Below are positions 49,528-51,537 of a stretch of DNA of 64,000 bases, one piece after another. Position 1 is the stretch's first letter, and every line of letters begins with the position of its first letter. The DNA comes from Faecalicatena orotica. GTDB lineage: Bacteria; Bacillota; Clostridia; Lachnospirales; Lachnospiraceae. Location of the stretch: NCBI RefSeq assembly GCF_003149245.1, contig NZ_QGDL01000014.1, positions 62,001-126,000 of the forward strand, in the 5' to 3' direction. The position numbers and the translations under genes were made by a program. The notes below the pieces were generated by a model that saw only the letters and a list, made by a program, of their open reading frames with translations, was not told where the DNA came from and searched no databases.

Positions 49528-50361
49528 ATGTACAGATTGAGTCCGGAAGATCTTCTTTCATTTGAAAAACATTTGACTGAAGAAGAAAAAAGTAAGGCAA
49601 CCACTGAAAAATATTTGAGGGATATCCGTTGCTTTAGACGTTTCCTACAGGATGGGGACATCAGCAAAGAGCAGACGATTGCATATAAAAAGTACCTGTT
49701 AGAAAGATATGCTCCCTCTAGTGTGAATTCCATGCTGGTATCACTTAATTGTTTTCTGCGTTATGCCGGTAAACAGGAATTCTGTGTGAAATTATTGAAG
49801 GTCCAGAGGCAGATCTTTGCCACGGAAGATAAAGAACTGAACAGGCAGGAGTACCAGCGTCTTGTAAAAGCGGCCGGGGATACACGGATGTCATATATTA
49901 TCAGGACTATCTGCGGTACGGGGATCAGGGTAAGTGAACTGGAATATATCACGGCAGAAGCTGTCAGGGCCGGTAAGGCCACTGTCCGGTGTAAAAGCAA
50001 AACAAGGGTCATCTTCATACCGGCAATGGTACAAAAAATATTATTTAAGTTCATAAAAAAAACCGGTCACAAAACCGGACCTGTATTTGTGAGTAGAAGT
50101 GGGAAACCTCTCGGCCGGAAAAATATCTGGAGGGATATGAAAGCATTGTGTTTAAAAGCGAAAGTGGCTGAGAATAAGGTTTTTCCACATAATCTCCGCC
50201 ATTTATTTGCGAGAACATTTTACTCTGTTGAGAAAGATATCGTGAGGCTGGCTGATCTGCTGGGACACAGCAGCATTAACACGACCCGGGTGTATACGAT
50301 AGAAACAGGTGAACAGCATATGGATTGTTTGGATCGTGTACAAATGTGTCTGATGACATAA
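49528..50361 (+). CDS. Tyrosine recombinase (site-specific, XerC/D-like), probable DNA invertase
   Basis: A 277-residue tyrosine recombinase. The N-terminal SAM-like domain (about 1-95) binds DNA. The catalytic domain has arginine I in CGTGIRVSELEYI (about 130-142), HNLRH (His-x-x-Arg, about 222-226), the LLGHSSINTT histidine and the nucleophile tyrosine in TRVYTIETG (about 257). No excisionase, replication or conjugation genes are nearby. The stop codon lies inside the left 20-bp inverted site (50355-50374), whose reverse complement is at 50628-50647. This makes a local invertase acting on the segment after its own gene the best reading. ATG has CAGGAGG upstream. Confidence 0.9.
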   Translation: MYRLSPEDLLSFEKHLTEEEKSKATTEKYLRDIRCFRRFLQDGDISKEQTIAYKKYLLERYAPSSVNSMLVSLNCFLRYAGKQEFCVKLLKVQRQIFATEDKELNRQEYQRLVKAAGDTRMSYIIRTICGTGIRVSELEYITAEAVRAGKATVRCKSKTRVIFIPAMVQKILFKFIKKTGHKTGPVFVSRSGKPLGRKNIWRDMKALCLKAKVAENKVFPHNLRHLFARTFYSVEKDIVRLADLLGHSSINTTRVYTIETGEQHMDCLDRVQMCLMT

Positions 50362-50374
50362 TGTCAATTATGTC
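50355..50374 (+). repeat. Left inverted recombination site (candidate)
   Basis: GACATAAT-GTCA-ATTATGTC. Eight-base arms are perfect inverted repeats around an asymmetric GTCA centre, the usual form of a tyrosine-recombinase core site. It includes the recombinase stop codon. A partial extra copy of the arm (CAGTATGTCA) lies just inside at 50379-50388. Confidence 0.8.
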
Positions 50375-50411
50375 ATCCAGTATGTCATTTATATAGTAAA
50401 TATCTTTGATT

Positions 50412-50440
50412 ATTATAGCATTGACGGACTGTCAGCTCAA
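50412..50440 (-). promoter_or_regulatory. Promoter within the invertible segment, facing left
   Basis: On the minus strand TTGAGC (complement of 50435-50440), 17-base spacer, TATAAT (complement of 50412-50417). In the present orientation it would transcribe back through the left site into the recombinase gene as antisense. No comparably good promoter faces right inside the segment. Confidence 0.75.
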
Positions 50441-50509
50441 CTTTGGACAGAGAAAATGAAAGAAAATAATAAGATTTACATATGTGTAATATTTCGTTTC
50501 ACTGAAATG

Positions 50510-50575
50510 GGCGCAAAAATGAAGCCATCAAGCGGACCTTGAAAAGCGGTGGCTTCATTTTTGCGCCTCTTTTTG
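50510..50575 (+). terminator. Strong terminator inside the invertible segment
   Basis: Perfect 18-base arms 50510-50527 and 50550-50567 (GGCGCAAAAATGAAGCCA and its complement) with a 22-base loop, followed by CTCTTTTT. In the present orientation it would stop read-through from the recombinase gene before the downstream gene. In the inverted orientation the T-run is on the wrong side. Confidence 0.85.
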
Positions 50576-50627
50576 CAATTTTATTGGCGGCATTCAATCT
50601 TTAGTAATCTGACCATACTGATATGAA

Positions 50628-50647
50628 GACATAATTGACATTATGTC
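50628..50647 (-). repeat. Right inverted recombination site (candidate)
   Basis: GACATAAT-TGAC-ATTATGTC, the exact reverse complement of 50355-50374. Its palindromic arms extend to 11 bases (GAAGACATAAT / ATTATGTCTTC). Just inside, read on the minus strand, CAGTATGGTCA parallels the extra element beside the left site. It ends ten bases before the GGGAGGA ribosome binding site of the downstream gene. Confidence 0.8.
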
Positions 50648-50667
50648 TTCCGGTGCGGGAGGATAAA

Positions 50668-51537
50668 ATGGAGTCAAGAATATACAGGAAACAAACCTGG
50701 GATGAATGGTATCTGTGTGCGAAAGATTATTTTGAAGAACATGGGGATCTGCTTGTGCCCTCCAATTATATAACAGCGGACGGCTACCGTCTGGGACGTT
50801 GGATTGAGCGGCAGCGGGCGCGGTTTAACGGGCTTCTTGCCAGCCCAATCTATCATGATGAACAAATTGCCCTGGAAAGTATCGGGATGGTCTGGAAGCT
50901 GGAGGACAGACTTGAATGGGACAAATGGATTTCTCTGGCAGAAGGGTATTATCGGCAATATGGAAATCTGGAAGTTAATACCGAATATGTAGCAGATGGG
51001 TACCGGCTCGGATATTGGCTTAGGGAACAGAGGAAAAAGCGGAAATCCGGGAAATTGACGGAAAAGCAGATTAGAGATTTGGACCGGTACAAAATGATCT
51101 GGAGCTGCTATGAAAGAAGGAGCTGGAATAACTGGTATTCTATGGCAGAAGAATATTTTCTGGAAAACGGGAATCTGCTGATTCCGTTGAATTATAGGAC
51201 TAAGGGAGGGGAACGGCTGGGAATATGGATTTTTGTCCAGCGGGAAAGGTACAGCCAGAAAGGAGGGCGCAAGCCTCTTAACAAGGAACAGATTCAGGCA
51301 CTAGAGAGGATTTTGATGGTCTGGGAACTTGATAATGTGCGGGAGGAAAAGTGGACGGCCATGTATCAGTGGGTAAGTGAATATAAAAGAGAATATGGCC
51401 GTCTGCCTCTGGGAAGAGAATTGAAGGCTCCGGACGGGCGAAGTATGGGAAACTGGATATCTGTGCAAAGAAAGGCTCTGAAGCAGGGGAAGATGTCTGT
51501 GGCTAAAGCAAAGCAGCTGGAGACTCTGGAAATCTGA
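50668..51537 (+). CDS. Protein of four helicase-associated (HA) domain repeats
   Basis: A 289-residue soluble protein made almost wholly of four repeats of about 65-70 residues (near 8-75, 76-145, 147-218, 222-289). Each has the pattern W-x2-WY/W-x3-A-x-YF-x2-H/Y-G-N/D-L-x-V/I-P, then GYRLGxWI-x2-QR and LxxIxMVW. This matches the helicase-associated domain, usually found in tandem after helicase cores and thought to bind nucleic acid. No helicase domain is present here. ATG 50668 follows GGGAGGA; upstream in-frame codons lie in the recombination site. In the current orientation the gene appears promoterless behind a terminator, so it is likely off. Confidence 0.8.
   Translation: MESRIYRKQTWDEWYLCAKDYFEEHGDLLVPSNYITADGYRLGRWIERQRARFNGLLASPIYHDEQIALESIGMVWKLEDRLEWDKWISLAEGYYRQYGNLEVNTEYVADGYRLGYWLREQRKKRKSGKLTEKQIRDLDRYKMIWSCYERRSWNNWYSMAEEYFLENGNLLIPLNYRTKGGERLGIWIFVQRERYSQKGGRKPLNKEQIQALERILMVWELDNVREEKWTAMYQWVSEYKREYGRLPLGRELKAPDGRSMGNWISVQRKALKQGKMSVAKAKQLETLEI

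Follow-up and report, generated by a model that had tools for sequence, protein, structure and literature searches.

A putative invertible promoter beside its own tyrosine recombinase, predicted to switch an HA-repeat protein in Faecalicatena orotica

Downstream of a tyrosine recombinase gene in Faecalicatena orotica, a pair of inverted 20-base sites encloses a segment that contains a promoter-like sequence and lies directly in front of a gene encoding a protein of four helicase-associated (HA) repeats. We read this locus, which forms part of a stretch of 64,000 nucleotides analysed as a whole (the window), as an invertible promoter that is flipped by the adjacent recombinase to give ON/OFF variation of the HA protein, and on comparison with related sequences we put the probability of this reading at about 0.88. 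A first-pass annotation of the same DNA had proposed a promoter that is inverted by the tyrosine recombinase next to it, and that proposal is strongly supported by the anatomy of a family of related loci, by the conserved position of the promoter, by the occurrence of both orientations and by breaks in assemblies at the switch. We infer inversion in this strain, promoter activity and the function of the HA protein, and, from the conserved adjacency of recombinase and sites, the dependence of inversion on the recombinase acting on these sites. The features of the locus are collected in Table 1.

Table 1. Predicted features of the locus, with positions in the window.
Feature	Position	Strand	Basis
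Tyrosine recombinase, XerA/C/D-like, 277 aa	49528..50361	+	PF00589, E 1.4e-21
Antisense terminator-like hairpin with T8 inside the recombinase gene (lead only)	50063..50078	-	Terminator scan, folding
Left recombination site, centre GTCA	50355..50374	+	Imperfect extension to 50352-50377; overlaps recombinase stop
Putative invertible segment, 253 bp	50375..50627	.	Bounded by the site pair; family comparison
Promoter-like sequence TTGAGC-17-TATAAT with extended -10 (TG)	50412..50440	-	Consensus and conserved position; faces the recombinase as assembled
Long terminator-like hairpin, T-rich stretch behind it	50510..50574	+	Folding, inverted repeat, terminator scan
Right recombination site, inverted copy, centre TGAC	50628..50647	-	Sequence comparison with the left site
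Ribosome binding site for HA, probable (GGGAGG)	50657..50662	+	Read from the sequence
Predicted target gene of the switch, encoding a 289-aa protein of four HA (helicase-associated) repeats, pI 9.3	50668..51537	+	PF03457, E 2.2e-54

The left site, GACATAATGTCAATTATGTC, is the exact reverse complement of the right site, from which it is separated by 253 bp, and each of the two is a perfect 8-bp dyad (11 bp counting the outer bases) around a 4-base centre, the centres being of opposite sense; the reverse complementarity, 8-base arms and centres are as the first-pass annotation had described. With imperfect matches admitted, the pair lengthens to 26 nt at 92% identity, the right copy then spanning 50625-50650. 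Also in agreement with that annotation, the recombinase stop codon (TAA, 50359-50361) falls inside the left site. On the other side, 9 bases separate the end of the right site from the ribosome binding site of the HA gene, whose ATG begins at 50668. Throughout the genome of this strain, the site arms with any centre occur at these two places only when no mismatch is allowed and at one further place with one mismatch, and sequences with up to 3 mismatches are no commoner than those of a reversed control (42 versus 39 per strand). Extra arm-like copies (CAGTATG-TCA) just inside the sites, to which attention had been drawn, are present in the window but missing from the three relatives inspected (L033, L034 and L035, at the promoter-side end in all three and at both ends in L033). 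A segment flanked by an inverted site pair with an asymmetric core, as found here, is the ground plan of an inverton. The enzyme next to it has a Phage_integrase catalytic domain and, located by motif, Arg134, a Lys in the 156/158 region, His221, Arg224, His247 and Tyr256, which we take to be the catalytic set R-K-H-R-H/W-Y of tyrosine recombinases; domain and residues together assign it to that class.

Among 397 genomes belonging to the same family, 79 encode relatives of the recombinase at E<=1e-45, in some cases several, and weaker matches were kept outside the family count. The family set comprises 140 loci: 136 fetched from the E<=1e-45 list, after removal of at least the window's own place and a partial match (G251), together with the window itself and loci from Blautia parvula (L033), UBA1683 (L034) and an uncultured Ruminococcus (L035). 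The complete genome of Blautia parvula NBRC 113351 has five recombinase matches at E<=1e-40. For 118 loci, the window included, at least 700 nt of sequence lies downstream of the recombinase. We scanned this side for inverted pairs with a score of at least 15 and a left copy no farther than about 400 nt from where the recombinase gene stops: 103 loci have such a pair and 15 have none at this threshold, compared with a pair in 1 of 354 sequences shuffled by dinucleotides and, on the upstream side, in 6 of 113. Because the pair recurs at this rate in the family and in a single shuffle, a chance origin of the site pair is excluded. Where a pair is present, the left copy begins no more than 100 nt from the recombinase end in 101 of 106 loci, and segments range from 91 to 603 nt (median 234). 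The usual site of the family reads ACATAAT-N4-ATTATGT and is extended outwards, for instance by ACC or ACA, and some recombinases are accompanied by diverged sites, for example ACCACAGAAT-N4-ATTCTGTGGT, in which both copies have been altered together. No palindromic centre occurs among 74 sites of the form CATAA-N6-TTATG, as expected if the site core sets the direction of exchange. Judged by sequence, the recombinase with its inverted pair is a widespread cassette that is reused with many targets.

Several members of the family depart from this plan. The genome of the window contains a second family cassette (L148, G000:C8, about 145233-146338), whose recombinase is 47% identical and which has three copies of the site, two in the same orientation and one inverted, so that deletion between the direct copies could also be possible. 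At another locus (L183, G274:C2, near 188 kb) each end of the segment consists of three tandem site copies, which together make an 89-nt inverted repeat. The recombinase has 19 matches at E<=0.001 in one genome (G030); at six of the loci there (L129, L140, L153, L157, L159 and L165) the usual site was not seen, four being cut within 800 nt, and two of the six have a segment of 466-469 nt with other repeats. On pMM59_01, a 504-kb plasmid of Pusillibacter faecalis that is typed as conjugative, a family recombinase at 47% (L239) precedes the gene of an S-layer homology domain protein by about 0.7 kb, and relatives of the family are therefore found on mobile replicons as well.

To locate promoters we used matrices that were not fitted to these bacteria. 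In 80 of the 106 segments, compared with 145 of 1060 shuffles, the -10 element of the best sigma-A-like promoter falls 45-80 nt away from one of the two element ends; 72 of these 80 position-conserved promoters have a 17-nt spacer, and 35 of the 72 have an extended -10 TG. The promoter-like sequence of the window, 57 nt from the left element end, has the same form. A scan of 2.3 kb of the window returned 5 promoter-like sites where 4.4 are expected by shuffling, which is within chance, and the case for the promoter therefore rests on its conserved position in the family. By consensus and position, the segment thus carries a predicted promoter that would be able to face the target gene, as in known invertons. 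Between this promoter and the HA gene lies a long hairpin with a T-rich stretch behind it: the region 50495-50585 folds with a minimum free energy of -38.6 kcal/mol (z -5.7), and the hairpin was a hit in our own terminator scan and was missed by a scan limited to loops of 8 or fewer. Such a hairpin should stop recombinase transcripts before they reach the HA gene and so tighten the OFF state.

We define OFF as the promoter pointing towards the recombinase and called orientations with a 2.5-bit margin. The first-pass annotation had suggested comparing orientations in related genomes, and both states are present there, with 66 OFF, 12 ON and 28 unclear among the 106 segments; a stricter rule (promoter score at least 10, in the conserved place) gives 57 OFF and 9 ON. 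As assembled, the promoter of the window points away from the HA gene, which corresponds to OFF, and among the five HA-linked switches the window and L033 are OFF, L068 and L070 are ON and L092 is unclear. The sharpest case is a pair of switches in one genome, L117 and L118, which align in inverted orientation at a score of 97 versus 1.5 directly and contain near-identical promoters facing opposite ways. L186 and L188, and L095 compared with L088 and L089, are likewise oppositely oriented, less sharply than this pair, and ten other pairs of related segments share their orientation. On a quick tree of the recombinases the 12 ON loci require 11 changes, and the ON state is therefore scattered over the family and not inherited.

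Assemblies tend to break at the switch. Contigs end within 500 nt of the recombinase on the downstream, switch side in 22 of the 136 fetched loci versus 4 on the upstream side (p 5e-4); several of them (L067, L076, L090, L125, L144, L152, L176, L185 and L187) stop within a site, at it or shortly before it, and some breaks (L072, L153, L157, L165 and L168) have no recognisable site. The nearest relative of the locus, in G238, has a recombinase with 78% and an HA protein with 76% identity, and since the similarity to the window extends to the two ABC genes upstream (84% and 88% identity) we regard it as the orthologous locus. Compared with the window, the recombinase contig of G238 stops at the point where the left site would start, and the contig with the HA gene opens at the end of the right site. 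Searching this genome for the site with up to 1 mismatch, a search that misses more diverged sites, found one place only, in another cassette. A mixture of orientations would cause breaks of this kind in short-read assembly; other causes are possible, and the near-palindromic sites may themselves disturb assembly.

On our preferred reading, the recombinase would pair the inverted 20-bp sites, exchange strands at their asymmetric centres and invert the 253-bp segment, whose single sigma-A-type promoter is predicted to lie about 57 nt away from an end of the element. In the assembled orientation this promoter would fire towards the 3' end of the recombinase gene, the hairpin would insulate the HA gene from recombinase read-through, and HA would be OFF; after inversion the promoter would lie near the right site and drive HA expression (ON) with an RNA leader of roughly 70 nt. 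The dyad sites could instead be operators or terminators with a static regulatory role, for instance in letting the recombinase regulate its own gene, without any inversion. As a perfect dyad, each site might be bound by a dimer or fold into a weak hairpin, and the orientation in this strain has been seen once only, but the oppositely oriented homologous segments (L117/L118, L186/L188, and L088 and L089 versus L095), the breaks on the switch side, the lack of palindromic centres in all 74 sites and the scatter of ON and OFF over the tree argue against such a role, which we consider very unlikely. Still harder to credit is an origin in a mobile element, with the recombinase as its integrase and the repeats as attachment sites or decayed element ends. 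PHROG integrase families do match the recombinase, gene neighbourhoods vary and relatives occur on plasmid records; however, the sites are inverted and not direct, they enclose a promoter-like sequence and no gene, and direct attachment repeats around a cargo, as an integrative mobile element would have, were not found. Moreover, the recombinase has no close relative among IMG/VR viral contigs, and the only specifically named plasmid hit is itself an invertase, PsrA (30%).

It is also conceivable, and in our view unlikely, that the segment inverts but serves chiefly to produce RNA antisense to the recombinase gene and not to express HA. OFF is the commoner state (66 of the 78 called loci), in which the promoter faces the recombinase 3' end; in the window the recombinase stop touches the site, and an antisense terminator-like hairpin with a T8 run lies within the gene. 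That hairpin, on the other hand, is not significant by folding (z -1.5, with 17 of 200 shuffles folding equally well), and an antisense output need not exclude control of HA. Antisense hairpin hits recur near the same position of the recombinase gene in several relatives, and we considered and rejected the antisense terminator as a conserved feature: the same crude scan reports hairpins in most genes, on the antisense strand in 128 and on the sense strand in 96 of the 140 recombinase genes. As the scan is unspecific and the T-run of the window matches Lys-Lys codons, the hairpin is retained as a lead. Returning to the invertible promoter as a switch for HA, a more elaborate form of it can be imagined, in which the OFF promoter reads antisense into the recombinase, lowers flipping and so stabilises OFF, while the ON orientation frees the recombinase and expresses HA as a phase-variable nucleic-acid-binding regulator; we hold this self-referential, biased switch to be speculative and rather doubtful.

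The predicted target belongs to the HA domain family, matching PF03457 in 4 stretches with 182.1 bits against a gathering score of 28.4; this is its only Pfam family, and no helicase domain was found in it. AlphaFold2 models every repeat as three helices, with a pLDDT of 91.9 for a single repeat. Fold searches with the whole protein and with one repeat gave no useful match (Foldseek best E >1; one VIA row with Z 2.0), and of the solved structures only PDB 2kta is related in sequence at a clear E-value (1.4e-7). Pfam describes the PF03457 family as nucleic-acid binding, a description that we assume to apply here, and the HA protein is probably nucleic-acid binding; as fold comparison gave no useful match, this rests on the Pfam description and the pI. 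The protein has no viral relatives in IMG/VR and one weak phage record at 28%, PADLOC reports no defence hit for it or for the recombinase, and a literature search on HA domain function yielded no title bearing on the domain among the matches listed.

A same-strand gene follows closely behind the right site at 89 of the 106 loci with a pair, the 17 loci without a suitable same-strand gene nearby being left out of the target count. By crude rules, the first target protein carries a hydrophobic segment at its N-terminus in 57 of these 89 cases and an LPXTG-like end in 5. In a Pfam tally in which proteins of more than 500 aa were cut to their first 500 and the 25 most frequent of 62 families were considered, the commonest matches are Peptidase_S26 (8), HA (5) and Peptidase_S24 (4), then Rrf2, List_Bact_rpt, VWA_2 and CoA_binding_3 (3 each) and capsule enzymes. 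The targets of the cassette are thus often exported or surface proteins, with HA a minority (5 of 89). Three family switches (L035, L074 and L098) stand in front of genes whose translations read as SipW-like signal peptidases; in L035, TasA-like proteins follow as well, an arrangement that suggests phase-variable matrix fibres.

HA switches were found in the window, in L033, L068, L070 and L092, and at the broken G238 locus. The order recombinase, switch, HA is the same in the first five, and linkage to HA requires 3 changes on the quick recombinase tree. Neighbouring genes are common only to the window and G238 (upstream) and to L068 and L070 (downstream) among the five loci compared, and because flanking genes are only partly shared, recombinase, switch and HA gene seem to travel together. 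The Blautia parvula HA protein (L033, 5173-5835) has 221 aa from the aligned start and is without the fourth repeat. A search for more HA switches in 392 genomes of the order at E<=1e-50 returned the window's own genome only, and searches of the genera around G238 and G158 covered one genome each. Six other short HA genes (L214, L215, L216, L224, L231 and L233) have, within flanks of about 1.5 kb, neither a family recombinase nor an inverted repeat with exact arms of more than 12 nt, and open frames of about 490-1092 aa account for many further HA hits.

Switches in which a tyrosine recombinase flips a promoter are well known. Jin et al. (2025; PMC11892184) detected invertons with sequencing reads in a defined gut community, and in the available text of that study the most significant link between inverton and invertase is that of inverton group 139 with tyrosine-recombinase group 35; 32 of the 33 invertons of group 139 are from Clostridia, nearly all have a tyrosine-type recombinase of one sequence group in their vicinity, and invertases near invertons are generally not placed so that the inverton promoter would drive them. 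Our cassette family is probably the same as inverton group 139 with invertase group 35, an identification made from the text of that paper rather than from its site motifs. The first-pass annotation had regarded the combination at this locus as unfamiliar; the type of switch is in fact known (Jin et al., 2025), while HA as the switched gene was not found described among the matches listed. The words 'helicase' and 'Blautia' do not occur in the available text of Jin et al. (PMC11892184). In the open-access literature we found neither an HA-repeat protein as the target of a phase switch, nor a nucleic-acid-binding regulator recorded as the payload of such switches, nor a paper on an invertible promoter with a tyrosine recombinase in Lachnospiraceae, and a search with the site sequence gave matches that, among those listed, were all unrelated by title.

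The class of switch is therefore known, and the target protein seems unusual for the class. The locus would extend this class to an intracellular, probably nucleic-acid-binding protein and may offer an entry point to the function of standalone HA-repeat proteins. The sequence rules of the family, namely a site pair directly behind the recombinase and, at 45-80 nt from one of the ends, a promoter whose spacer measures 17 nt, would let ON and OFF be read from related assemblies, and both the strong bias towards OFF and the antisense geometry are directly testable. The predicted switch resembles that of RecV of Clostridioides difficile, a tyrosine recombinase that inverts short segments controlling surface and regulatory genes; compared by description, RecV serves several switches, whereas here a recombinase lies beside each switch (PMC5903667). 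PsrA of Streptococcus is likewise a tyrosine recombinase that inverts DNA between inverted repeats, as seen in vitro, but unlike the system proposed here it rearranges hsdS coding sequences at repeats of 15 bp and longer and not a promoter (PMC7096588). The predicted target protein, for its part, has the same repeat family as other HA (PF03457) proteins, whether standalone or fused to helicases.
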